Below, in pieces: positions 6,456 to 20,207 of a DNA stretch of 34,148 bases (its first letter is position 1; every line of letters starts with the position of its first letter). Origin of the DNA: Spirochaetaceae bacterium (GTDB taxonomy: Bacteria; Spirochaetota; Spirochaetia; Treponematales; Treponemataceae); the NCBI GenBank assembly GCA_017614995.1, contig JAGAAX010000063.1, positions 1 through 34,148 on the forward strand, read 5' to 3'. Made by a program: the position numbers and the translations under genes. The notes below the pieces were generated by a model. That model did no database searches and was not told the DNA's origin. It saw only the letters and a program-made list of their open reading frames with translations.

Positions 6456-7667
6456 TCACACAAACTCTAGCGGCAGAGCCTGCACTGTTTCAGACAGGAA
6501 CATTTTTTTATCGCACTGACAGAGAATTGTTCCTGTCTGTATTTCATTCAGCAGCTTGACTGCCGGAAAATTCTTTGCCATAGAAATTGAGACCTGTGCT
6601 GATTTCTTTATTTCAACAGGAAACAAAGAGCCATTTTTTGATATGAGCAGGTCAATTTCTTTCTGATTGCTGTCACGATAGAAAAAAAGACTTCGCAAAT
6701 CAGCACCGCTATTAAAATAAGTCTTTGCAATTTCACTTATTACAAAAGTTTCAAACAATTCTCCTGCCATTGCTCCGTTTTGAGCAACTTTCGGGTTATC
6801 CCAACCCACAAGATAACATACAAGACCTGTATCGTTAAAATAAATTTTGGGAGTTTTTACGGTACGCTTCAAAATGTTGTTCTCATACGGGCGCAAAAAG
6901 AAGATTATGCCTGACGCCTCAAGAACTGAAATCCAATTCTGTATTGTCTTTAGCGAAACACCAGTTGAATTTGCTATATCAGCAGCATTAAACAGACAGC
7001 CTGTTCTTGCAGCAAGCGCTACCATGAATTTATAAAAAAGACTTTCATCTTTTATATTCATCAGATTGCGGACATCGCGCTCAATATAAGATTTTACATA
7101 AGAACGGTAAAAAAAGTTCCAGTCAATTTCTTTATTGGTCATTTCAGGCATTGAACCGTAAAAAATATCGTTCCAGATGCCGTTATATTGAACTAAATTT
7201 TCTAAGCGGTTCTGTATATAGTCTGAATTCGGAACAAACGGTTCAAAAAAATTGACTCTCTGTTTTTCTCTCAACGAAAGTCCCTGTAACTCAAGGATTC
7301 CAATTCTTCCGGCAAGAGATTCGCTCACGTTCTGCATGAGTGAATATGTCTGCGAACCTGTAAGACAAATCTGACCTTTTGCATCGCTCTTATCAACAAG
7401 AAATTTTATATAACGGAACAACTCCGGCGCATACTGAACTTCGTCAATTACAACAGGCAGGCTGTGATTTTTAAAAAAAAGCGCAGGATCACTTCTTGCC
7501 TGTTCAAGTTCTGCCATATCGTCTAAAGTGACGTATTCAAAATTTTTAAGCTCATTTTGTAAAAGCGTACTCTTGCCAACCTGTCTTGGACCTGTAACAA
7601 GTACAACTTTAAATTGAGATAACATCTTCATCAACGTCTGTTTTGCATGGCGCTGTATATATGGCAT
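6456..7667 (-). CDS. AAA_14/DUF4143 ATPase with intact PD-(D/E)XK-like C-terminal domain
   Basis: This 403-residue protein is of the AAA_14 plus DUF4143 type, common and often multicopy in anaerobes and archaea, with unknown function. Walker A is GPRQVGKS (26-33), Walker B is VVIDEVQ (Asp75-Glu76) and the sensor is ICLTGSQ. A winged-helix segment (AADIANSTGVSLKTIQNWI) precedes the C-terminal domain, which keeps the nuclease-like residues KEID (Asp339) and VEIKK (Glu352, Lys354). The start has an agagg ribosome site. A 41-bp palindrome lies 11 bases upstream, and an 11-bp direct repeat (6421-6431, 7769-7779) brackets gene plus palindrome. It is oriented against the preceding operon and begins the AT-rich accessory zone. 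Confidence 0.85.
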   Translation of the reverse strand: MPYIQRHAKQTLMKMLSQFKVVLVTGPRQVGKSTLLQNELKNFEYVTLDDMAELEQARSDPALFFKNHSLPVVIDEVQYAPELFRYIKFLVDKSDAKGQICLTGSQTYSLMQNVSESLAGRIGILELQGLSLREKQRVNFFEPFVPNSDYIQNRLENLVQYNGIWNDIFYGSMPEMTNKEIDWNFFYRSYVKSYIERDVRNLMNIKDESLFYKFMVALAARTGCLFNAADIANSTGVSLKTIQNWISVLEASGIIFFLRPYENNILKRTVKTPKIYFNDTGLVCYLVGWDNPKVAQNGAMAGELFETFVISEIAKTYFNSGADLRSLFFYRDSNQKEIDLLISKNGSLFPVEIKKSAQVSISMAKNFPAVKLLNEIQTGTILCQCDKKMFLSETVQALPLEFV

Positions 7668-7813: not shown

Positions 7814-8095
7814 TTAATAGAACAAGTCGGTGTGACTACCTGTGTCAAAAAGTTCCAAAATAAGGACATTATCCAGATACCGATAAACCAACAGCCAGTC
7901 TGGCTCTATATGACATTCTTTGAATCCCTCATAGTTTCCGCTTAGGCTGTGATTTTTGTATTGTACGGGCAAAGTTTCTCCATCAGCTAGAAGTGCAACG
8001 ACCTTTTCAAGTTTAGAAATATCTTTACCGCGTTTTATTGCCTTCTTATAGGCTTTCTTAAAACGGTTAGAAAACTGAACTTCGTACTTGCTCAT
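7814..8095 (-). CDS. YafQ-family mRNA interferase toxin
   Basis: This 93-residue RelE-superfamily toxin cuts mRNA on the ribosome and blocks translation. All residues known to matter in E. coli YafQ are present: the NHSL histidine (H49), CHIEPDW (H62, D66, W67) and the C-terminal GSHTDLF histidine (H88). Length is normal for the family. The start overlaps the antitoxin stop by four bases (ATGA), the usual coupled arrangement. It is probably a functional toxin, silenced by complex formation with the antitoxin. The neighbours are unrelated, as expected for a mobile toxin-antitoxin pair. Confidence 0.88.
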   Translation of the reverse strand: MSKYEVQFSNRFKKAYKKAIKRGKDISKLEKVVALLADGETLPVQYKNHSLSGNYEGFKECHIEPDWLLVYRYLDNVLILELFDTGSHTDLFY

Positions 8096-8373
8096 TTACG
8101 CAGATCAGCCCACATTTCATCAAGATTGCTATACCGTTTATACTTCTCTGGATGTTTTTCCATCTTTTTAGATTCTCGCAAAGCTGCTTTTAGCCGTCTT
8201 GAGGGTCTGTGAATTCCATCAATGGTGTCATCTTTTCTTTTGAACAGGCGTGAAAAAAAACGAGTTTTTGCGGGAATGAATTTTCCAATGTTCACACCAT
8301 TTTCTTCTATTAGCACAGGTTCATTATATGTTCTCAAATTATTATTAAAATCAGAAACAGAAACTACAAGCAT
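8092..8373 (-). CDS. Antitoxin partner of the YafQ-like toxin (Phd-like N-terminus)
   Basis: The 93-residue antitoxin starts at 8373 (MLVVSVSDFNNNLRTYNEPV), chosen for the agagggtaat ribosome site; an upstream in-frame ATG at 8421 falls inside the promoter and is rejected. The N-terminus (VSVSDFNNNL...VLIEENG) looks like the Phd/YefM DNA-binding fold. The C-terminus (SKKMEKHPEKYKRYSNLDEM) is a charged, helix-forming toxin-wrapping tail of the kind seen with YafQ/RelE partners. It would neutralise the toxin and repress its own promoter at 8393-8421. Confidence 0.8.
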   Translation of the reverse strand: MLVVSVSDFNNNLRTYNEPVLIEENGVNIGKFIPAKTRFFSRLFKRKDDTIDGIHRPSRRLKAALRESKKMEKHPEKYKRYSNLDEMWADLRK

Positions 8374-8392
8374 ATTACCCTCTCTTATGAAA

Positions 8393-8421
8393 AAAATAAC
8401 ACAGCCATTTTCTGTAGTCAA
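8393..8421 (-). promoter_or_regulatory. Promoter of the toxin-antitoxin operon
   Basis: On the reverse strand, TTGACT (8416-8421) and TATTTT (8393-8398) are separated by 17 bases, ending 19 bases before the antitoxin ATG. The spacer holds a weak dyad acag / ctgt that could be the autoregulatory operator. Confidence 0.55.
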
Positions 8422-8470
8422 GGTAAAATAAATAGAGCTTTAACATGAAAAATAAGCAGGAATCGATTTC

Positions 8471-8490
8471 CTAAAACATGAGCGAATATT
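8471..8490 (+). repeat. Isolated copy of the ctaaaa-tgagcga repeat
   Basis: The sequence ctaaaacatgagcgaatatt differs by one base from the copy at 10677-10696 and is related to those at 10613 and 10645. The region 8422-8540 otherwise holds a 12-bp perfect palindrome, gtaagtacttac (8511-8522), and one copy of a 19-bp direct repeat. Confidence 0.7.
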
Positions 8491-8540: not shown

Positions 8541-9023
8541 TTACAGCCTTTCGTATCTTGTAAAATCAATCGGTTCTAATACAGTCGGAAATCTCATCGA
8601 AAAGACTAAAACATCAGTACTACCTGTCAATGCAATATCGCCTTTTGAAAGAATGTCCATTCCAATAATGATATCAAAGTTTTCACTGCCGGCTACTTCT
8701 GTTACAAGGACATTTTGAAACATTGTTCCACAAGGAAGCTTTATATCAGCTTTATACACAGGCGCAAGACCTGTACCTTGTGCAGAAACGATTTTCATAA
8801 CAGAAACTCTTTCAAGGTTACAGGCACTTGCAAGACGACGGCTTATGCATGTACCATTTGCACCTGTATCAATTAGAGCTTTTACTTTTATTTGTATAAT
8901 TTTTGAAGTATCTGCGGCTTCAATTTCAGTTATAAACTCGGAATCAACAATTACTGCATTTTTTTGTGAATACGGATAACAGCAGGTATATGTTCTTACA
9001 TCAGACCCGGCAAAACTCCACAT
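8541..9023 (-). CDS. Retropepsin-like aspartic protease (single domain)
   Basis: This 160-residue protein has the single-lobe aspartic protease signature ALIDTGANGTCIS (catalytic Asp52-Thr-Gly) and the second hydrophobic-Gly element FDIIIGMDILSKGDIAL that precedes the flap-closing strand. Such single-lobe proteases work as homodimers. There is no signal peptide, so it is probably cytosolic. The gene overlaps the end of the upstream 83-codon gene by 23 bases and has no ribosome site of its own, so translation is presumably coupled. The two genes are bracketed by a 19-bp direct repeat and look like a transferable pair. Its substrate, possibly the partner protein, is unknown. Confidence 0.75.
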   Translation of the reverse strand: MWSFAGSDVRTYTCCYPYSQKNAVIVDSEFITEIEAADTSKIIQIKVKALIDTGANGTCISRRLASACNLERVSVMKIVSAQGTGLAPVYKADIKLPCGTMFQNVLVTEVAGSENFDIIIGMDILSKGDIALTGSTDVLVFSMRFPTVLEPIDFTRYERL

Positions 9024-10566: not shown

Positions 10567-10612
10567 CGCCAGATTTACGGTTAAAGTAAAAACGTACAGA
10601 AGCACAGCCTTC

Positions 10613-10696
10613 CTAAAACATGAGCGAATTTTTCTCAGTTTTCACTAAAATATGAGCGAGTTTTTCGTACTTTTCACTAAAACGTGAGCGAATATT
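10613..10696 (+). repeat. Three tandem copies of ctaaaa-tgagcga, period 32
   Basis: Copies start at 10613, 10645 and 10677, exactly 32 bases apart. The core is ctaaaa(c/t)(a/g)tgagcga followed by a/gt-rich sequence; copies 2 and 3 are preceded by ttttca. A fourth copy sits 2.1 kb away at 8471. Repeated subterminal motifs of this sort occur at the ends of some insertion sequences, such as the IS21 family, but no transposase lies in the window. They could be a solo end or an operator array. Confidence 0.6.
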
Positions 10697-10712: not shown

Positions 10713-11459
10713 TTATTGCTTATATTCCTTGAGCCATTTGTTCGTTTCCGAATATATATTATAATTTCTGTTATAATATTTAGTTGACCAGTTATCTGCC
10801 ATAAGATAATTTTTATAATTCTTAGCTCTTGGTTCTACTTCTATTATCTGAAACCCTGTATCTATTCCTATAAACAGATGGTGCATCTTATACGGCGCAG
10901 GTTTCTTGTTGCGTATGATAATACAACAGGGTTTTCTATCGGGATATTTCTCATCCCAATAGATTTTGAAAAGCACTGCATAATCAATACAGTTGACCAG
11001 ACCGTCTCCATTAATATCATGTACATAAGTCTTAACCTTGTGCATCACACACTCAATGCGTTCATCTAATTCAGGTTCAACAGGTTTGTCACCCGGAGCA
11101 CCTTCAATAAGATATGCCAGACCAATGCATAATAGTAATGGTACTATAATGCACATAAATATAATAAAGCCTATATGTTTTAAATAACCTGAGAATGACA
11201 TCCACTGACTTGGGTCATAAGAATATCTTACATAATTTTCTGATATATATGTAGATAAACGCTGCCTGTCATACTCATTCATTTGGTTGTAGCAAGTTTT
11301 ATACTGTGCATGAATTCGGCAGTACTTACAATCATTCTTAGTGCAGCGGCCAAATTGTAATTTACATATACAAGCAGCACGTCCCTTAGCCAGCTCACGG
11401 ACAGCAAGATCGTTAAATGATTCTTGTCTTGTTACTAATCTGAATTCATTATCTGACAT
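10713..11459 (-). CDS. Membrane-anchored protein with possible transglutaminase-like cysteine domain
   Basis: The 248-residue product starts at 11459 (MSDNEFRLVTRQESFND), chosen for the tggaggatatt ribosome site. Residues about 30-60 hold a cysteine cluster (AACICKLQFGRCTKNDCKYC). One membrane span follows (about 98-122, IIFMCIIVPLLLCIGLAYLI). The C-terminal half has HDINGDGLVNCIDYAVLFK, which reads as a calcium-loop-like turn leading into a Cys, then HHLFIGIDTG and IIEVEPR. The Cys-His-acid order fits a transglutaminase-like or cysteine-peptidase fold. That is inference; I know no named relative. It is the last gene of a five-gene reverse-strand operon. Confidence 0.6.
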   Translation of the reverse strand: MSDNEFRLVTRQESFNDLAVRELAKGRAACICKLQFGRCTKNDCKYCRIHAQYKTCYNQMNEYDRQRLSTYISENYVRYSYDPSQWMSFSGYLKHIGFIIFMCIIVPLLLCIGLAYLIEGAPGDKPVEPELDERIECVMHKVKTYVHDINGDGLVNCIDYAVLFKIYWDEKYPDRKPCCIIIRNKKPAPYKMHHLFIGIDTGFQIIEVEPRAKNYKNYLMADNWSTKYYNRNYNIYSETNKWLKEYKQ

Positions 11460-11512
11460 AATATCCTCCATTTTGGAATTTTCTAAACACGCAGAGCCAA
11501 GTGCCGCCGTTT

Positions 11513-11701
11513 TTACGGTTCTATATCCTCATTTGTTAATTCACGCTGCAACCTCTGCATTCTTTCCTGCTTTTTCTGCTTATCCAACCAGTAAGAGTTT
11601 CTTAGCCCCTGCCAGAACATAGGATTAATAAGAATACCAAACACAAGACTAACAAGCGGTACACCTACAAACAAAGGAATCAATTCATAAATATCTTCCA
11701 T
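11513..11701 (-). CDS. 62-residue single-span membrane protein
   Basis: Starts at 11701 (MEDIYELIPLFVGVPLVSLV) behind a strong ggaggaataaagat ribosome site. Residues 8-27 form one membrane span. The rest is a charged, probably cytoplasmic helix (WLDKQKKQERMQRLQRELTN). It starts 4 bases after the stop of the 40-residue gene, so it is part of the operon. Function unknown; it could anchor or scaffold the other small proteins encoded here. Confidence 0.6.
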   Translation of the reverse strand: MEDIYELIPLFVGVPLVSLVFGILINPMFWQGLRNSYWLDKQKKQERMQRLQRELTNEDIEP

Positions 11702-11705
11702 ATCT

Positions 11706-11828
11706 TTATTCCTCCAAGATTTTGTGCCAGTATTCGATAACCTCGAAATCATATTCCGGCATTCTGATAAAAACATACATCATGTCTATTCCCAAATCAC
11801 GGGAATACTGTTGGCTATTACTCAACAT
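11706..11828 (-). CDS. Possible 40-residue protein in the small-gene operon
   Basis: The frame begins MLSNSQQYSRDLGIDMMYVF and ends EYWHKILEE. Its ATG at 11828 overlaps the end of the 50-residue gene by 11 bases, a common coupled arrangement; a ggag lies 14 bases upstream, rather far. It ends just before the next gene, whose ribosome site lies within its last codons. Amphipathic and soluble. Small and unrecognised, but the packing argues it is translated. Confidence 0.45.
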   Translation of the reverse strand: MLSNSQQYSRDLGIDMMYVFIRMPEYDFEVIEYWHKILEE

Positions 11829-11970
11829 TACGGAATATTGCTCCGCAATTAGGACAGCCGTAGATACAAATCATTCCTCTAGCTCCCCATTCAAACCGCA
11901 AAAACTGCAAAAATCCAAAACAAAATGAACCGTCCATTTCATTGTGCGTTGTTCCAATAAGGTTATACAT
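11818..11970 (-). CDS. 50-residue protein with a zinc-ribbon-like cysteine motif
   Basis: The frame begins MYNLIGTTHNEMDGSFCFGF and ends with CIYGCPNCGAIFRNVE, giving a C-x3-C-x2-C group that resembles half of a zinc ribbon. The start at 11970 has an excellent ribosome site (caaggaggcacagt). It overlaps the following small gene by 11 bases. Without a second cysteine pair inside the same protein, metal binding may need dimerisation or Cys17. Function unknown. Confidence 0.55.
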   Translation of the reverse strand: MYNLIGTTHNEMDGSFCFGFLQFLRFEWGARGMICIYGCPNCGAIFRNVE

Positions 11971-12012
11971 ACTGTGCCTCCTTGTAAAAAAATCTATTGA
12001 TGAGATTTTCCA

Positions 12013-12450
12013 TTACAGACTTATTATTCCTTTTGTTAATAGCTCTGTAACCGATTTCTTAAAATTGCTTTTTGTGATTTTCAACCCACCATTAGCATCC
12101 AATCGGACAACAGGCGGATACCCTATTGTGTTCTCCATTTGAACTAATATACTGCTTGAGTTTTCTTTTCCATGTGCAGAATGTGGCAAACTTCCAACCA
12201 TAATTGCAGCCCACTTTTTATTGTTCTGCAATTCGTTATAGTTATAATTATCAACTTTTCTTGCTTCATAAATAAACACGAATCTTTCTTTTGGATTTAA
12301 TCCACAGTTCTTGCAAACAGACATTAAGATATTCACATTTTCCATATCTTTTCCAATTACAAGAACTTGTCCCATTGGGTTTGTTGACATTTTTTTCGCA
12401 ATAGGCAAAGTTAGTAAATCATTATGTTCTGAAAAACAACCTTTCTGCAT
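12013..12450 (-). CDS. Unknown 145-residue protein heading the small-gene operon
   Basis: The protein begins MQKGCFSEHNDLLTLPIAKK. A Rossmann-like stretch (MGQVLVIGKDMENVNILM) is followed by SVCKNCGLNPKERFVFIYEA, a strand WAAIMVGSLPHSAHGKENSS and a C-terminal helix VTELLTKGIISL. It may be a small alpha/beta protein; I do not recognise a family. The ribosome site is gacaggaggtacaaatt. Upstream lie an inverted repeat (12464-12495) and a 26-bp element shared with the next operon, so it is probably the regulated first gene of 12450-10713. Confidence 0.55.
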   Translation of the reverse strand: MQKGCFSEHNDLLTLPIAKKMSTNPMGQVLVIGKDMENVNILMSVCKNCGLNPKERFVFIYEARKVDNYNYNELQNNKKWAAIMVGSLPHSAHGKENSSSILVQMENTIGYPPVVRLDANGGLKITKSNFKKSVTELLTKGIISL

Positions 12451-12463
12451 AATTTGTACCTCC

Positions 12464-12495
12464 TGTCAGGTTATGTGTATAATATAACTCTGACA
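12464..12495. promoter_or_regulatory. Inverted repeat at the operon promoter
   Basis: Arms tgtcag (12464-12469) and ctgaca (12490-12495) extend inward as gttat / ataac with a one-base offset. It overlaps the predicted -10 (GTTATA on the reverse strand, 12483-12488) and ends 13 bases before the start codon. Likely operator. Confidence 0.45.
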
Positions 12496-12505
12496 AGAAA
12501 TACTG

Positions 12506-12531
12506 TGGTCAACTGACGGGCGACTTTTTCA
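12506..12531 (-). promoter_or_regulatory. Shared 26-bp upstream element, copy 1 (contains -35 TTGACC)
   Basis: Matches 16444-16469 at 24 of 26 bases in the same orientation. Read on the reverse strand it ends in gtcagttgacca, giving a -35-like TTGACC (12507-12512) 18 bases from GTTATA. The element ends 55 bases before the first gene of its operon; the other copy ends 57 bases before its own. The equal distance argues for a shared promoter or operator. Confidence 0.6.
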
Positions 12532-12539
12532 AACTCGGT

Positions 12540-13073
12540 TTAGATTTTTATATTTATAAATTCATCTGGTTTGTGAGATATGCGGCGATTAACTTTTTCA
12601 ATTACTTTACTAAGTTCATCTTGTTTAAGACGAACATAGACTTTCTGACTTTTTGTAACAAGCCGGAAACGCTCAAGTACCTCTTCATCTGATAATTCGA
12701 TTCCTGTATCTAAGCCATATTTTATCCTTGCTATCTTTTGTTCTCTTGTTGTCAACGAATTGATTATACTTAGAACATCATTTTGGAAATCTGATAATGG
12801 CTTTTTTTCTACGGAATCCTGAACATTTGTTCCTTTCAGCTCTCTTTCTTTTAACGTAAGGCGATGAATTGCTTTTGCTTCTATTCGTCGAATACCCTCT
12901 TTTGTTATATCAAATTTTTTACCAACCTCTTCTAAGCTTAGTGAATAACCATTTTTTAAGCCAAATCTCATTGTAATTACATCTTGTTCAAAAGGTGTTA
13001 GTAAAGATAATATACTTCTTAACTGTTCTTGAAGTTTTTCAAATGCTTCTTTCCATGAATTTTCATTATTCAT
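12540..13073 (-). CDS. Protein with two sigma-70 region-4-like HTH segments
   Basis: The 177-residue protein has LLTPFEQDVITMRFGLKNGY then LSLEEVGKKFDITKEGIRRI and EAKAIHRL at about residues 24-75. That is a textbook sigma-70 region 4 reading. A second, weaker copy follows (SLTTREQKIARIKYGLDTGI, about 105-135). There is no region 2, so it cannot act as a normal sigma factor; it more likely binds -35-like DNA or RNA polymerase as a regulator or anti-sigma-like protein. It starts 2 bases after the ankyrin gene stop and ends its operon. It is a natural candidate to act at the TTGACC-containing element upstream of both operons. Confidence 0.7.
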   Translation of the reverse strand: MNNENSWKEAFEKLQEQLRSILSLLTPFEQDVITMRFGLKNGYSLSLEEVGKKFDITKEGIRRIEAKAIHRLTLKERELKGTNVQDSVEKKPLSDFQNDVLSIINSLTTREQKIARIKYGLDTGIELSDEEVLERFRLVTKSQKVYVRLKQDELSKVIEKVNRRISHKPDEFINIKI

Positions 13074-13075
13074 TA

Positions 13076-15007
13076 TTATTCATCCTCCTCACTTTCAACT
13101 AATGCCTTGAAGAATACTTTTCCAGTAACTCCATAAATACGATCATTCCAATCATATAATTTATAATTCTTTTCATTTAATAAAGTCTTTACTTCTAAAT
13201 CTTTTTTATCCATTTCTGAAAAAGCATACCCAGCACTCTGGAGGAAATCTTCACTTTCATTCAATGTAAGTTTTAGTCCAAGTGCAAGTTGAATAACAGT
13301 ATCCTTTTTAGGTCTAAAATCGGGTTTTCGATTACTTATAATTTTTGAGAAATTTTGCTTTGAAATTCCTGCATCTTTATATATATCTGACTGTTTATTA
13401 TTAGGGAAACGTTCCAGATACTTTTGCATATACCAATCGAATCGATCTAGAAAAGGTTGATGTTTTTGAGGAATTTCATCTTTTCGATTTATTTCTGTCG
13501 CTGGAAGTTTTAACTTCATTCGTTCAATTATTAATTGAGAAAATGAACGGTTATCAAAGCTTTTTGTATAATCTTCAAAAGTTTTTCCACTTTTGTCTTT
13601 TACAGTTTTATCTGCTCCATTCCGAATAAGAAGCATAAGCAGGTTTGGATTATTTTTACTTGCAGCATACATCAGAGCTGTAATACCATTTTCATCAACC
13701 TTATTTATGTCTGCATCATATGCAATTAGTTGAGCTGCTGCTTTGTCTGCATTTATGTAACTTGCTATCATTAATGGCGACATTCCAAAATAAGGGGAAT
13801 CATTTATATCACAATCAAAATCCATACAAACATGAACTACATTCGCATTATTGGTTAAGCAAGCAGAAGTTAAAGCTGCGATAGTCATCTCTTTTTGATT
13901 TTTACTATTCTCTAGTAGAACTACTAGAACATCAACATTACCTTTCATAGCTGCCTTTATAACAGCTCGGGTGTATTCTTCATCTGATATTTTCTGCGTA
14001 TCTATCAGAAGTTTTGTGATTCTCGCGGAATTATTTTCTGCTGCAACAAGAAAAGCTGTATTTTGATTTATATCTTTTACGAAAGGATCTGCACCAGACT
14101 TTAGCAAAGCTTCTGCAATTATATTATTATCATATTGTGCTGCAACTATCAGAGGAGTTCTCCCCATTTTATCTGAGAAATTAACATTTGCGCCATATTG
14201 AATAAGTTTCCTAGAAACATTCCAATTCTTCTGACTTATAGTATGTGTTAATGCTGATTCTCCATAATAATTTACAGCATCAATATCTGCTCCAGATTCT
14301 ATCAGATAGTCAAGAACTTCATAACTTCTATGTGCAGCAGCTTTCAACAAGGCAGTTGAACCTGTAATATCTTTTTCTTCTAATTTGATTTCTTTGCATC
14401 CTAATAGAAGTTTTACAGAATAAACAGAATTATTAAATGTTGTATACATCAATGGTGTCTGTCCATTTGCATCAGTAGCATTAATATCTGCCCCAAGTTC
14501 TATCAGTACTTTTGTTGATTCACAGGCATCAGCAGCACAAGCAAGCATCAATGATGTTGTACCACTCTCAATACATTGGTCAACATCATAACCAGTAGCA
14601 ACTAAGTCTTTAATTTTTTCAACATCATTATCTTGAACATAATTGAACATCTTAATAATACTAGAATTCTTCCCATCGGTAGTTAGATTCTCTAGAAAAA
14701 CAATGAAAGGAAACTCATTATTCGAGTCAAAATAATTTAAAACCGCAAGTTCAGAAGTTATTACTAAAGACCAAGTCGCTCCTAATTCTGTCATTTTTTG
14801 TTGTACATTATTTGCAAGTGAAGGATTCTCTCTAAAATCTTCTGGATTTGGGATTCGACATCCAAATGATTTCAGTTTCTCCGAAATTACAGTAAAATCA
14901 TTTGTCATTAGATACACATAGTTTTTCCCTTGAATTCTAAGAGGAACCCTTTTTTCAAGTACAAGTTCTTTTTCTGATTTTTTTGATGTGTCAAATATTA
15001 AAGACAT
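13076..15007 (-). CDS. Ankyrin-repeat protein with C-terminal Cro-like HTH
   Basis: The 643-residue protein starts at 15007 (MSLIFDTSKKSEKELVLEKR), chosen for the aaaggagttttt ribosome site. An N-terminal domain of about 110 residues is unrecognised. About ten ankyrin repeats follow (roughly 125-470; e.g. NGQTPLMYTTFNN, MGRTPLIVAAQYDN, NGITALMYAASKNN). The C-terminus (about 520-610) reads DIYKDAGISKQNFSKIISNR, PKKDTVIQLALGLKLTLNES and FLQSAGYAFS. It closely resembles the HTH tail on many Firmicute macro-domain and related conflict-associated proteins. No membrane span or signal. Ankyrin repeats would bind a protein partner, while the HTH could bind DNA or act as a sensor. It lies between a nuclease-like gene and a sigma-like gene. 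Confidence 0.8.
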   Translation of the reverse strand: MSLIFDTSKKSEKELVLEKRVPLRIQGKNYVYLMTNDFTVISEKLKSFGCRIPNPEDFRENPSLANNVQQKMTELGATWSLVITSELAVLNYFDSNNEFPFIVFLENLTTDGKNSSIIKMFNYVQDNDVEKIKDLVATGYDVDQCIESGTTSLMLACAADACESTKVLIELGADINATDANGQTPLMYTTFNNSVYSVKLLLGCKEIKLEEKDITGSTALLKAAAHRSYEVLDYLIESGADIDAVNYYGESALTHTISQKNWNVSRKLIQYGANVNFSDKMGRTPLIVAAQYDNNIIAEALLKSGADPFVKDINQNTAFLVAAENNSARITKLLIDTQKISDEEYTRAVIKAAMKGNVDVLVVLLENSKNQKEMTIAALTSACLTNNANVVHVCMDFDCDINDSPYFGMSPLMIASYINADKAAAQLIAYDADINKVDENGITALMYAASKNNPNLLMLLIRNGADKTVKDKSGKTFEDYTKSFDNRSFSQLIIERMKLKLPATEINRKDEIPQKHQPFLDRFDWYMQKYLERFPNNKQSDIYKDAGISKQNFSKIISNRKPDFRPKKDTVIQLALGLKLTLNESEDFLQSAGYAFSEMDKKDLEVKTLLNEKNYKLYDWNDRIYGVTGKVFFKALVESEEDE

Positions 15008-16059: not shown

Positions 16060-16386
16060 TTATAAGTTTTTAGTGTATAGCCATACCCCTTCACGTCCTG
16101 TAGATATAGGCCATTTTCGGCCTTTTGCTTCAGAATATGTTGTTATGTGAGTGAAATTCATCATATCTCGTCGTTCTTTAAAATATAAATCCAGAAGAGC
16201 TTTTTTTGATTTTTCATGATGTTTCCTAGCAGCCTGTTCCCACCAATAAGAAGCTCCGTCAAAATCTTTATTGTGATAACATTTTATACCTCTTCGATAT
16301 AAGTCATTTGCATCCACTTCATTCTTACAAAGTGGATTTCCTTGAATGCTATCAACCTTTCTTAAGATTTCTGCAATGTTTGACAT
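16060..16386 (-). CDS. Small protein with one Sel1-like repeat
   Basis: The 108-residue protein is MSNIAEILRKVDSIQ... with NDLYRRGIKCYHNKDFDGAS and YWWEQAARKHHEKSKKALLD at about residues 26-65, a single TPR/Sel1-like hairpin pair for protein binding. The C-terminus (FTHITTYSEAKGRKWPISTG) is unrecognised. The ribosome site is aggagaaattatt. It is first in a four-gene reverse-strand operon, 68 bases before the nuclease-like gene. Its promoter region carries the 26-bp element shared with the other operon. Confidence 0.6.
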   Translation of the reverse strand: MSNIAEILRKVDSIQGNPLCKNEVDANDLYRRGIKCYHNKDFDGASYWWEQAARKHHEKSKKALLDLYFKERRDMMNFTHITTYSEAKGRKWPISTGREGVWLYTKNL

Positions 16387-16443
16387 AATAATTTCTCCTA
16401 ATCACATTTGATAATTCAACTATAAAGAATAGCAATAGAAAAC

Positions 16444-16469
16444 TGGTCAACTGATAGGCGACTTTTTCA
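16444..16469 (-). promoter_or_regulatory. Shared 26-bp upstream element, copy 2 (contains -35 TTGACC)
   Basis: On the reverse strand TTGACC (16445-16450) is 18 bases from TTTATA (16421-16426), giving a promoter for the operon starting at 16386. It differs from 12506-12531 at two bases. The rest of 16387-16586 has no gene apart from the promoter of the plus-strand module. Confidence 0.6.
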
Positions 16470-16586: not shown

Positions 16587-16802
16587 ATGTGTAAGAAAGC
16601 AGAAATGCAGTTTTCGGTTTTTCTCATTCATCAGTTGGCGCAGAGCTGGCAAAAAACTCCGCAGGAAGTTTATCACATACTCGACAAGACACACATTCTT
16701 GACGACTACATCATAAAACATTACGATGTTCTGCACACAATGGGCGAACAAAGTCTTATAGAAGACATCACCGATTTTGTAAAGGAAAAACAGGCTGTAT
16801 GA
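16587..16802 (+). CDS. DUF3791 small protein
   Basis: The 71-residue protein (MCKKAEMQFSVFLIHQLAQS, then YHILDKTHILDDYIIKHYDV and LHTMGEQSLIEDITDFVKEK) fits DUF3791. This family is usually encoded directly before DUF3990 genes, as here. It is all-helical and has no catalytic motif. Its last codons overlap the start of the next gene by four bases. By position and size it is the likely antitoxin or adaptor of the DUF3990 protein, but this is inference. Confidence 0.75.
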   Translation: MCKKAEMQFSVFLIHQLAQSWQKTPQEVYHILDKTHILDDYIIKHYDVLHTMGEQSLIEDITDFVKEKQAV

Positions 16803-17287
16803 CAGTTTATCATGGCTCAACAACCGAAATCAAAAAGCCGGATGTCTCTTTTTCAAAAAAATATCTTGATTTTGGCATAGGGGTTTACGTTACAGCTTTT
16901 AAAAATCAGGCTGAAAAATGGGCATTGCGAAAAGCAGACCGAGTTGAAAAGGGAATTGCCACTGTCAATGTTTTTGATATAGCAGAAGAACTTAACGATT
17001 ATAAAGTTCTTGACTTCAAAACAGAAAATGAAGAATGGCTTGATTTTGTCTGTGACTGCCGCAAAGGTTCTGAAATCTATAAAAATTATGACATCATAAT
17101 TGGCGCAGTTGCAGATGACGATGTTTTCAAAACTGTAAACATGTATTTCCGGGGTTTTTGGGATAAAAAAAAGACTCTTGATGAAATCCGCTATTACAAA
17201 ACCAACAATCAAATTTGCATAACAAAGCAGGAAGTAGTGGACAAGATTCTCACTTTCAAATATTCGTACACTGTGGAGGCTAAATAA
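16799..17287 (+). CDS. DUF3990 protein (ADP-ribosyltransferase-like fold)
   Basis: The 162-residue protein begins VYHGSTTEIKKPDVSFSKKY and continues LDFGIGVYVTAFKNQAEKWA. The YHGS strand, FGxGxY(V/L)T and the following helix match DUF3990 and resemble the NAD-binding core of ADP-ribosyltransferases. Later EWLDFVCDCR, YDIIIGAVADDDVF and NQICITKQEVVDKI complete the family pattern. It may be a toxin that ADP-ribosylates a cellular target; the reaction is inferred from fold only. It overlaps the DUF3791 gene (ATGA) and is followed after 2 bases by a third small gene. Confidence 0.75.
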   Translation: MTVYHGSTTEIKKPDVSFSKKYLDFGIGVYVTAFKNQAEKWALRKADRVEKGIATVNVFDIAEELNDYKVLDFKTENEEWLDFVCDCRKGSEIYKNYDIIIGAVADDDVFKTVNMYFRGFWDKKKTLDEIRYYKTNNQICITKQEVVDKILTFKYSYTVEAK

Positions 17288-17289
17288 AA

Positions 17290-17523
17290 ATGACTGATAA
17301 AAATGCCCTTACAGTTTTTTACCGGCAGGAACTTGAAACAAGCATTATCGAATATCTTGCAGATAAACTGAAAATTGATTTTCGTGATGCTATGAAAGTC
17401 TACTACAATTCAAAACTTTCTGAACAAATTGAAAAAGGCGAAAACGGAATCGACAATCTCGACTACAAGAATCTTGCTGAAGATTTGATAGAAAACGAAT
17501 ACAACTATTTTTGTAAATCATAA
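17290..17523 (+). CDS. Small protein downstream of DUF3990
   Basis: The 77-residue helical, acidic protein (FYRQELETSIIEYLADKLKI, then MKVYYNSKLSEQIEKGENGI) commonly accompanies DUF3791/DUF3990 pairs as far as I can tell; I know no named family. The ribosome site is ggaggctaaataaaa, overlapping the DUF3990 stop. It closes the three-gene module. The duplicated start of the WYL gene begins 34 bases later, so the regulator was once probably the fourth gene. Confidence 0.65.
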   Translation: MTDKNALTVFYRQELETSIIEYLADKLKIDFRDAMKVYYNSKLSEQIEKGENGIDNLDYKNLAEDLIENEYNYFCKS

Positions 17524-17930: not shown

Positions 17931-19160
17931 ATGAAATATTACAAACGCGAATCTTATTTGCAAAAAATCCGTGGTTTTTATGACGAAGCAGAGATTATAA
18001 AGGTTATAACAGGAGTGCGTCGTTGCGGAAAGTCTAGTCTTATGCAGACCATTGCAGATGAAATTTCGGAGCGTGGTATTTCTTCTGAAAATATCATTTA
18101 CCTTAATCTGGATAAACGCGGATACCGTTCTATCAAAACACCTGAACAGCTTGAGCAACTTATTGATGAAAACTCAAAAGCATCCGGCTTAAAATATCTT
18201 TTTATTGATGAAGTTCAGAATGTAAAAGATTTCGAGGAAGTTTTAAATGAATACCGCGATGACGGGGAATTTTCAATTTTTATAACAGGTTCAAACTCAT
18301 ATCTTTTAAGTGGAGAATTGATTACAAAGCTTACTGGCCGTTACATTGAGTTTGAAATGTTTCCTTTGAATTTCAATGAATACCTTGAAATGAAAAAATT
18401 CTTTAAGAAGCCGCTCAGCCAGAATCTTTTAGAAGAGTTTGATAACTATCTTATTGAAGGCGGATTTCCAAAGGCAGTTCAGTTTGATTCAGTTAAGGAT
18501 AAGCGAACTTATATTTCCAGCGTCATTTCGGAAATTTTCGAAAAAGACATTAAGCGTCGGGTTAAGATAAAGAATACTTCTGTATTTAATAAGGTTCAGC
18601 AATATCTGATTAATAATTTTGGTTCAACTACAAGTTTGAGCAATATCCTTTCAGATTTGGAAAAATCAGGAATGAAAATAAAGCGTGAAACCTTAAACCG
18701 GTATATAAAGATTCTTTGTGATGCAAAAGTTCTTTATGAATGTGAACGCTTCGACCTGAAATCCAGAAAATCAATTTCTGGCGAAAAAAAATATTATCTT
18801 TCTGATTTGGGATTCTATTATGCAACGAATACGGACAACCGGATTAATTATGGCCCTGTATTGGAGAATCTTACATATATTTACGCAAAGGGAAATGATT
18901 ATTCGGTAAGTGTAGGCCGAATCGGGAAATTTGAATGTAATTTTATTTTACGCAAGAACAATAATGATTATAGTTATATTCAGGTTTGCATGACGATGAT
19001 GGCAAGTACTGATACTGAAGAGAGGGAATATAAACCTCTCGAAACTATCAAAGACAATTTTCCAAAATATATTCTTACCCGCAGCGATCCTATACAACAT
19101 CGAAATGGCATTATTCACAAAAACATGCCGGAACTTATGAAGAATGGAGAATTGTTTTAA
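17931..19160 (+). CDS. AAA_14/DUF4143-type ATPase, altered nuclease-like motif
   Basis: This 409-residue protein has Walker A GVRRCGKSS (28-36), Walker B YLFIDEVQ (Asp93-Glu94), sensor FITGSNSYLLSGE, then a winged-helix region (TLNRYIKILCDAKVLYECER). The C-terminal domain reads GKFECNFILRKNNNDYSYIQ. Where relatives have an Asp (EVDFI-like) this protein has Asn337, and the later E-x-K position is Gln-Val-Cys, so nuclease chemistry is doubtful. The end (REYKPLETIKDNFPKYILTR) is typical of the ~400-residue subfamily. It is only distantly similar to the ATPase at 6456. The ribosome site is weak (gatgagatttat). It is the only gene of the insert between the 51-bp repeats. Confidence 0.85.
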   Translation: MKYYKRESYLQKIRGFYDEAEIIKVITGVRRCGKSSLMQTIADEISERGISSENIIYLNLDKRGYRSIKTPEQLEQLIDENSKASGLKYLFIDEVQNVKDFEEVLNEYRDDGEFSIFITGSNSYLLSGELITKLTGRYIEFEMFPLNFNEYLEMKKFFKKPLSQNLLEEFDNYLIEGGFPKAVQFDSVKDKRTYISSVISEIFEKDIKRRVKIKNTSVFNKVQQYLINNFGSTTSLSNILSDLEKSGMKIKRETLNRYIKILCDAKVLYECERFDLKSRKSISGEKKYYLSDLGFYYATNTDNRINYGPVLENLTYIYAKGNDYSVSVGRIGKFECNFILRKNNNDYSYIQVCMTMMASTDTEEREYKPLETIKDNFPKYILTRSDPIQHRNGIIHKNMPELMKNGELF

Positions 19161-19163
19161 TTT

Positions 19164-19214
19164 ATTATAAGACGGAAGGGCAAAATGGCTGTAGACTTCA
19201 CCGAAAAGGCAAAA
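19164..19214 (+). repeat. 51-bp direct repeat, right copy (intact WYL gene start)
   Basis: Matches 17537-17587 with one mismatch (c for t, synonymous in the shared Thr codon). It begins 3 bases after the ATPase stop codon and leads into the complete WYL gene. Confidence 0.9.
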
Positions 19215-20207
19215 CGGTATCAGGCAATTGATGAGATAATCGCTTCGGGGCGCAAGCTCAAATGGAAAGAGATTATTTCCGAGCTTGGCGAAAAATATGA
19301 CATAAAGACAAGCCGCACTTCGTTTTTCCGCGATATTGAAGAACTTCAGGAAAAGTACGGCGCACCAATCGACACAGACTTTGAGACAAGCGGCTATTTT
19401 TACACCGACCCGAAATACCGGCTTCCGCGCTTTTACACAGACGAAAATGCGGCAAAAGCTGCAAAGCTTATAAAAACGCTCATGGACATGGTAAAAGGCA
19501 ACCCGCTTTACAAAGAAGCGCAGGAAGTCTTTGAATCGCTTTCGATAGAAAACCACGATTTGGCATTGGAAAACATCAGAATAAATAAAAATCCGCAGAA
19601 TGACAGAATTATCTTTGTGGGTGCGCCTAACAAAGAAGTTCCTGCTGAAACTTGGCGCATTATAGACAAAGCTTTGAAGGAAAACCGCGTTATCACTTTT
19701 GATTATCAGTCGCTTACGGACAATGCGCCTAAAAACAGGCGTGTGCAGCCATGGCAGCTTATTTTTGACAACGGCAACTGGAATCTTCACGCTCTTGACG
19801 TAATAAAAAACGCGCCCCGCCGGTATACGCTTAGCGAAATAAAGAATTTGCAGCTTACAGACGAGGTTTTCACACTTCCAAAAGACTATGACTTCCGCAA
19901 AATGACGCTCGGCTCATTCGGGTGCATGTGCCATGACCAGTATCTTGATTTTAAGATTCATCTTCATGGGTATGCGTCGCGCTATGCCAGAAACCGCATT
20001 TGGGGAGAAAATCAAAAGGTTGAAGCAGACAAAGAACACCCAGGTCATGAAGGCGAAGGAATCATTTTGAGCTTTAGAAGCAACCAGCTTTTATCTATAC
20101 AACGGTGGGTGTGGCAGTGGGCAGACGAAGCATGGCCGCTTGAACCCAAAGAACTCGTTGACGACTGGAAAAACAGGCTGCAAAAGGTCAATCAGATTAA
20201 GCTCTAA
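19185..20207 (+). CDS. WYL-domain transcriptional regulator
   Basis: The 340-residue protein has an N-terminal winged helix (about 10-75: YQAIDEIIASGRKLKWKEII, then TSRTSFFRDIEELQEKYGAP). A WYL domain follows at about 155-230 (VITFDYQSL, then RRVQPWQLIFDNGNWNLHAL, the family's W-Y-L position reading WNL). A C-terminal WCX-like part ends in RWVWQWADEAWPLEPKELVD. Such proteins sense ligands, often nucleotides or nucleic acids, and frequently regulate defence and mobile-element genes. The ribosome site gacggaaggg lies in the 51-bp repeat. Before the insertion it would have been the fourth gene of the DUF3791-DUF3990 operon. Confidence 0.85.
   Translation: MAVDFTEKAKRYQAIDEIIASGRKLKWKEIISELGEKYDIKTSRTSFFRDIEELQEKYGAPIDTDFETSGYFYTDPKYRLPRFYTDENAAKAAKLIKTLMDMVKGNPLYKEAQEVFESLSIENHDLALENIRINKNPQNDRIIFVGAPNKEVPAETWRIIDKALKENRVITFDYQSLTDNAPKNRRVQPWQLIFDNGNWNLHALDVIKNAPRRYTLSEIKNLQLTDEVFTLPKDYDFRKMTLGSFGCMCHDQYLDFKIHLHGYASRYARNRIWGENQKVEADKEHPGHEGEGIILSFRSNQLLSIQRWVWQWADEAWPLEPKELVDDWKNRLQKVNQIKL

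Follow-up and report, generated by a model that had tools for sequence, protein, structure and literature searches.

Class II activators of the C-protein and lambda-cI type have their operator dyad near −42, and sigma-70 region 4 recognizes −35 DNA in general. The spirochaete envelope is unusual, and to our knowledge few regulons are known in spirochaetes. For the BTLCP-type cysteine proteases LapG and DvhG, a C-H-D triad and active-site calcium are described (PMC13090378). In the open-access literature, no description was found of the Treponema ankyrin/transglutaminase/HTH system analyzed below. With moderate confidence, we propose that two adjacent operons belong to one regulon, in which an ankyrin-XRE activator turns on a membrane-anchored periplasmic cysteine hydrolase.

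The window, i.e. the whole stretch of DNA analyzed (34,148 nt), is one 34-kb contig of a Spirochaetaceae genome of 3.05 Mb in 64 contigs. The relevant features are as follows.

16419–16466, minus strand: control element 1, with the dyad at 16445–16466, a 20-nt spacer and the −10 box TATAGT at 16419–16424, before the S108/ankyrin-HTH operon
16060–16386, minus strand: S108 (108 aa), not assigned to a known family, with relatives next to E at L061/L089 and L080
15038–15991, minus strand: PD-(D/E)XK-like protein resembling HSDR_N at a score under the Pfam cut-off; related proteins at the E loci L057, L058, L059 and L073
13076–15007, minus strand: ankyrin-repeat protein with an N-domain and a C-terminal XRE-like HTH (13079–13462); proposed regulator
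12540–13073, minus strand: free-standing sigma-70 region 4 protein, 177 aa, placed as in L080
12481–12528, minus strand: control element 2, with the dyad at 12507–12528, a 20-nt spacer and the −10 box TATATT at 12481–12486, before A-B-C-D-E
12013–12450, minus strand: gene A, 145 aa, one weak relative
11818–11970, minus strand: gene B, 50 aa, CxxC motif, relatives in other genomes
11706–11828, minus strand: frame C, 40 aa, unsupported, with the ribosome site of D in its 3′ end
11513–11701, minus strand: gene D, 62 aa, one hydrophobic stretch followed by an NPxFWQGxRNSKxxD-type motif
10713–11459, minus strand: gene E, 248 aa, with a Cys cluster at the N-terminus, then a membrane helix and the C-terminal Cys157-His194-Glu209 domain

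The five frames A, B, C, D and E follow each other in this order on the minus strand and have the sizes (145, 50, 40, 62 and 248 aa) given in the first-pass annotation. Its picture of a cluster packed with overlaps and strong ribosome sites applies as far as the packing is concerned, with gaps of 42 nt (A–B), 4 nt (C–D) and 53 nt (D–E); the sole overlap is that of B and C (11 nt), and recognizable ribosome sites precede A, B, D and E and are lacking for C. As it had also stated, no member is recognized: none of the five exceeded a cut-off in Pfam or NCBIfam. No RNA family or tRNA was found in the window.

A coding signal in relatives was good for B, D and E, weak for A and absent for C. In a genome-wide search with a profile built from the D genes beside E, 14 matches to D were obtained at E values ≤1e-9 in 12 of 190 genomes, and all 14 lie 21–319 bp from an E N-domain. 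Weak matches (1e-4 to 7.5e-4) came from three genomes, all without a match to the E profile. Conversely, at the 23 loci with an E N-domain (contigs seen twice merged; L091, weak and on the opposite strand, omitted) D is adjacent at 13, missing at 9 and 2.6 kb away at L065. By its conservation, D–E is a pair, with D as the putative partner of E. Relatives of B are present in 6 of 190 genomes including its own, one of them with an internal stop and one in two pieces. At L149, B is 48% identical over its full length and without gaps to the N-terminus of a 135-aa protein; here, the control element is followed by this B relative and directly thereafter by a Transglut_core protein (Pfam E value 2.1e-9, above the cut-off). 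Reading B and C as a single frame-shifted gene was considered and dropped, as the B relatives run into a Gly-rich tail unlike C. For A, one distant relative was detected in 195 genomes (E value 9e-6), the C-terminal part of a 446-aa protein from T. saccharophilum (L095), and none in plasmids or PDB sequences. Frame C, compared with 54 loci (some redundant), matched only itself. The small genes B and D (50–62 codons), which annotation may miss, gain support from these data.

The first-pass annotation had treated the five genes as one operon whose gene order might be conserved. The set as drawn is not: the D–E pair is conserved, B stands with a classical transglutaminase elsewhere, and A and C are unconserved, so that a core of the proposed unit survives. 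Its observation was partly confirmed and its interpretation partly supported. The five-gene unit is the wrong frame and the natural unit is wider: the row in T. bryantii XBD1002 (L080; S108, ankyrin-HTH, sigma-4, E) matches that of the window (S108, nuclease, ankyrin-HTH, sigma-4, A-B-C-D, E) minus two inserts. The small-gene cluster forms one branch of a proposed circuit of gut and rumen Treponema relatives that is built around a shared DNA switch.

The Cys-His-acid order pointed out for E is real and conserved. In 19 aligned E sequences, D148, N156, C157, D159, F164, W168, N184, H194, L195, E209 and W224 are invariant, and an EF-hand-like loop (DxNxDGxxNCxDY) surrounds Cys157. These sequences form profile A5, which retained 19 of the 29 rows of A3 after removal of ten (N-domain-only rows, fragments, L063 and L064). 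A profile search placed E relatives in 41 of the 195 genomes of the family, its own counted; at the level of the order, a broader profile matched 40 of 291 genomes, which represent 11 of 82 genera and two families. Scanning genome contigs with the A5 profile gave 30 loci, 29 in entries titled Treponema or a spirochaete group and one in an entry named only 'bacterium', in a scan that used one degenerate pattern from the own family, so that distant groups could be missed. With the single E sequence, the contig scan yielded 56 pattern matches and no relative, and PDB sequences gave no convincing match to the profiles A1 and A8.

The genome of the window contains a second full-length E on contig C7 (38% identical) and a third locus on C34, at which the N- and C-domains are separate genes; genome G007 shows the same split. 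At L053, L055 and L058, the N-domain (Cys cluster and helix) is one gene adjoining D, and the C-domain is a separate protein of 316–339 aa with an exported-like start and a beta-rich end domain. Signal-peptide-like starts were found in the split C-domain homologues of L010, L011, L053, L055 and L058. From charge and these split homologues, E would be anchored in the inner membrane, the Cys cluster facing the cytoplasm and the C-domain the periplasm. The beta-rich end domain of the L055 protein recurs in a protein at L143 (E value 4e-7) that has the control element in front and no Pfam match; by eye, its HAWLWI and DPTW motifs suggest a transglutaminase. Given the exchange at L149 and the end domain shared with L143, the C-domain of E and transglutaminases occupy the same place in the system. 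Two further arrangements were noted: a 302-aa protein consisting of two E C-domains in tandem (L091:9992–10900), and an ADP-ribosylglycohydrolase (E value 1e-36) between D and an ankyrin gene in T. ruminis (L053:10170–10994).

The AlphaFold model of E (mean pLDDT 92.1, pTM 0.61) places Cys157 at the opening of helix 157–171, His194 on strand 192–200 and Glu209 at the end of strand 205–208, which is the element order of transglutaminase-like cysteine hydrolases. A Foldseek search with this model gave no match at E values ≤0.001, the best being vasohibin at 0.077. VIA-align returned menin (Z 8.0), LapG (7.6, 110 residues) and MOA (7.3; MOA-type lectin proteases), followed by NTAQ1 (6.4), TglA (6.0) and PeiP (5.8), where Z scores under 8 can reflect a common arrangement; most of these matches we take to be papain- or transglutaminase-like. 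Menin, although the top row, was not taken as kin of E. The transglutaminase-like domain proposed in the first-pass annotation is supported by the conserved residues, the model and the structural rows jointly, and E would accordingly be named a candidate membrane-anchored periplasmic cysteine hydrolase. As modeled, E shares with LapG and DvhG the Cys-His-acid order on helix, strand and strand (LapG being the best row besides menin), acidic calcium-type residues beside the Cys and a proposed extracytoplasmic site. It differs from them in having Glu in the place of Asp, in lacking Pfam membership, in being joined to a membrane helix and to a Cys cluster that is predicted to be cytoplasmic, and in its partner D; a c-di-GMP receptor was not found beside E. 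The true but unrelated Transglut_core member (PF01841) at L149 stands in the place of E behind the control element and gene B, whereas E itself does not match this family.

Alignment A6 comprised E and 24 of the 30 contig-scan loci (L067, L070, L075, L076, L077 and L091 omitted). Compared with the Pfam cysteine-peptidase and transglutaminase families, including Peptidase_C93 and PF01841, E and 24 relatives reached none; one of the 25 members touched Peptidase_C71 at 0.009 (cut E ≤0.01). The commonest Pfam touch was Dockerin_1, at E values ≤0.01 in 5 of 25 members (best 0.0019, below the cut-off). Together with the LapG-like matches at Z under 8, this would fit a non-catalytic C-domain, i.e. 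a calcium-binding, dockerin-like or scaffold domain sharing the arrangement. We consider such a role very unlikely: Cys, His and Glu are invariant in the 19 sequences though the loop varies (L049, L064), the single repeat of E, half a dockerin, scored 16.2 bits against a cut-off of 22.9 for dockerin type I, and a true transglutaminase-core protein is found under the same control element.

The control element that the first-pass annotation had reported as shared with the next operon was confirmed as a 26-nt repeat (12506–12531 and 16444–16469, 24 of 26 positions identical), and it recurs far outside the window. The element consists of a dyad and a −10 box at fixed distance, with the consensus AAAAGTCGCCTGnCAGkyGACC-N20-TAnnnT; the dyads at L059 and L073 are perfectly palindromic (GTCGCCTGACAGGCGAC). 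At ≤3 mismatches the own genome contains four sites only, two in the window and two at the C7 locus, and no match to the backwards control pattern. The element fronts the A–E operon, the next operon (ankyrin-HTH, sigma-region-4) and both operons of the paralogous locus; elsewhere it precedes genes for E, ankyrin-HTH, transglutaminase and exported proteins. The seven other genomes of the genus had no site at ≤3 mismatches. With a weight matrix derived from the four sites, other E loci scored 9.9 to 33.6 compared with a maximum of 4.0 in three shuffles. Without the −10 box, the pattern occurred 42 times among 190 family genomes, in 21 of them (control pattern, 3); dyad, N20 and −10 box at ≤1 mismatch gave 32 sites, spread over 18 of the 281 genomes of the order, and none for the control. 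Because the genomes include close relatives, the sites are not independent. One full element with one mismatch was observed in another family of the order (G330:C42:5498–5545).

TAnnnT lies exactly 20 nt past the dyad in 41 of 50 distinct sites, compared with 8 of 50 for the next-best offset, and four of the nine sites missing this spacing result from reading the same dyad on the opposite strand. A TG one base ahead of the −10 box was found in 19 of 50 sites. With transcription starts placed from the −10 box (first base taken as −12), the dyad would be centered at −42, which is the class II activator position. Sites with GCGACC as the second half lack a −35 box, as expected for an activated promoter. 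The element is, on the other hand, not universal at E: in 19 of the 30 scanned E-locus regions, including most WYL-D-E loci, the third locus of the own genome and G007, no site was found at ≤3 mismatches, so that E is not tied to this one switch. Two of the 11 regions with sites have them away from E, and the element is ahead of a D–E pair in this genome only (window and C7). That A and C are almost without relatives would suit a collection of unrelated orphan genes with a chance repeat. We give this reading practically no credence, as it is already contradicted by all of the evidence on B, D, E and the element, together with control patterns of 0 to 3 matches.

In its model (pLDDT 81), the C-terminal domain of the ankyrin protein (P0007) is an XRE-like five-helix fold resembling DdrO, C.Esp1396I and SinR. 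The Foldseek probability for DdrO was 1.00 at an E value of 0.096, and the search gave no match at E values ≤0.001; Pfam HTH_3 was matched by 2 of 22 HTH members, the one of the window not among them. The control element stands directly before ankyrin-HTH genes at L082/L150, L136, L137, L141, L151, L153, L154 and L155, and just after such genes at several. An HTH-domain match is present within 6 kb of 30 of the 42 sites, such stretches making up about 0.26% of the sequence; the remaining 12 sites have none within 6 kb, some of them on contigs ending nearby. The HTH is present in 18 of 21 genomes with sites versus 49 of 169 others (Fisher p 7e-7). The latter 49 have no element site at that stringency; in G095, G137 and G186, sites occur without an HTH match. 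The ankyrin-repeat protein probably reads the dyad. It would resemble the C proteins of restriction-modification systems and other lambda-cI-type class II activators in its XRE fold, self-regulation and a dyad near −42, and would differ from them by its envelope targets and by the conserved N-domain and ankyrin repeats to which the HTH is joined.

Sigma-4 proteins adjoin E or its N-domain in the window and at L047, L048, L066, L080 and L148. In view of the general recognition of −35 DNA by sigma region 4, and of the 12 sites without a nearby HTH gene, the dyad might instead be read by a sigma-region-4 protein or the WYL regulator, the ankyrin-HTH genes being mere members of the regulon. This is unlikely in our judgment, considering that far more site loci have HTH-domain genes than sigma-4 genes, that a bare HTH protein without ankyrin repeats precedes the element at L148 and L152, that a dyad fits a dimeric regulator and that WYL-D-E loci mostly lack the element.

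Under the proposed regulation by the ankyrin-repeat protein (13076–15007), its XRE-like HTH would bind as a dimer to GTCGCC-N5-GKYGAC at −42, within reach of sigma region 4, and would switch on its own operon and A-B-C-D-E from a −10 box 20 nt beyond the dyad. By their conservation, D and E are made together, with D as a one-helix membrane protein always located beside the N-domain of E. Perhaps with the help of calcium bound by the EF-hand-like loop beside the catalytic Cys, E might then cut or cross-link an envelope protein or peptide, much as LapG does, in response to a cytoplasmic signal sensed by the ankyrin regulator. A list of orphan genes would in this way become a testable circuit, composed of a regulator with an unusual ankyrin sensor, a DNA site whose geometry is fixed, and an enzyme for which catalytic residues and a partner can be named. 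In many genomes from gut and rumen, the dyad search alone points to candidate genes of the envelope.

The surroundings of the two operons would also fit another function. They lie in a low-GC island (approximately 8–19 kb), the PADLOC models WYL, PDC-M72A, PDC-M13 and PDC-S01 match genes of the window, and a YafQ-type toxin is encoded at 7814–8095. A WYL gene was found in the fetched stretch of 11 of the 23 E N-domain loci, and E has a patchy occurrence (41 of 195 genomes). The island might thus serve in anti-phage defense or conflict, with the ankyrin protein as sensor, the HSDR_N-like protein as nuclease, E as membrane effector and the WYL regulator in control. Against this, A, E, the HSDR_N-like protein and P0009 match no PADLOC model, the PDC-M72A match spans the ankyrin repeats only, E has no relative in phage records, and the genes driven by the element besides E often encode exported proteins, for which envelope work is the better fit. 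MzaA of the MZA anti-phage system resembles the window proteins in sigma-70 region 4 (E value 3e-17; P0006) and by a faint ankyrin touch (0.001), but its sigma end alone matches (residues 596–679 of 683), and the PADLOC scan of ten window-related proteins contained no other MZA gene. A defense role is therefore an alternative that we regard as unlikely while still according it appreciable weight; the activation of an envelope hydrolase by the ankyrin regulator remains our preferred reading.

Several features of the island and its flanks were recorded in addition. The YafQ-type toxin and the gene upstream of it (7814–8421) are likely a toxin-antitoxin pair, and a retropepsin-like aspartyl protease domain (gag-asp_proteas) is encoded at 8541–9023 in the same low-GC island. 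A 23-nt repeat with the core CTAAAA-ATGAGCGA is present in four copies (8468–8490 and 10610–10696); directly past the end of E, three of these are spaced by 32 nt. At 16799–17523, a DUF3990 protein is followed by a 77-aa gene, with a match to the candidate defense models PDC-M13. Two ATPase-like genes with PDC-S01 matches (6456–7667 and 17931–19160) flank the island. The WYL-domain regulator, near or beside D–E pairs at the 11 loci mentioned, has its window copy at 19185–20207, about 8 kb from E.

In T. bryantii NK4A124 (L047:3358–4689), and also at L066, the gene directly behind E encodes a fusion of sigma-70 region 4 with a stand-alone C-terminal domain of FlhA (FHIPEP, E value 2e-53 in the L047 fusion), of which L046 and L052 have shortened versions. 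As a speculation to which we attach little credence, the system could be a modular inside-out circuit, in which the ankyrin sensor is the class II activator, free-standing sigma-region-4 proteins from the same gene sets tune it, and the NK4A124 FlhA fusion couples flagellar export to envelope proteolysis by E.

The paralogous set on C7 of the own genome (L009:3739–10794) is built in two halves, each with one control element ahead of it. The first encodes a Cys-rich 193-aa protein and two ankyrin-HTH proteins, and the second a 61-aa gene product, an SSB-like protein (below the cut-off), two small gene products, D and E.
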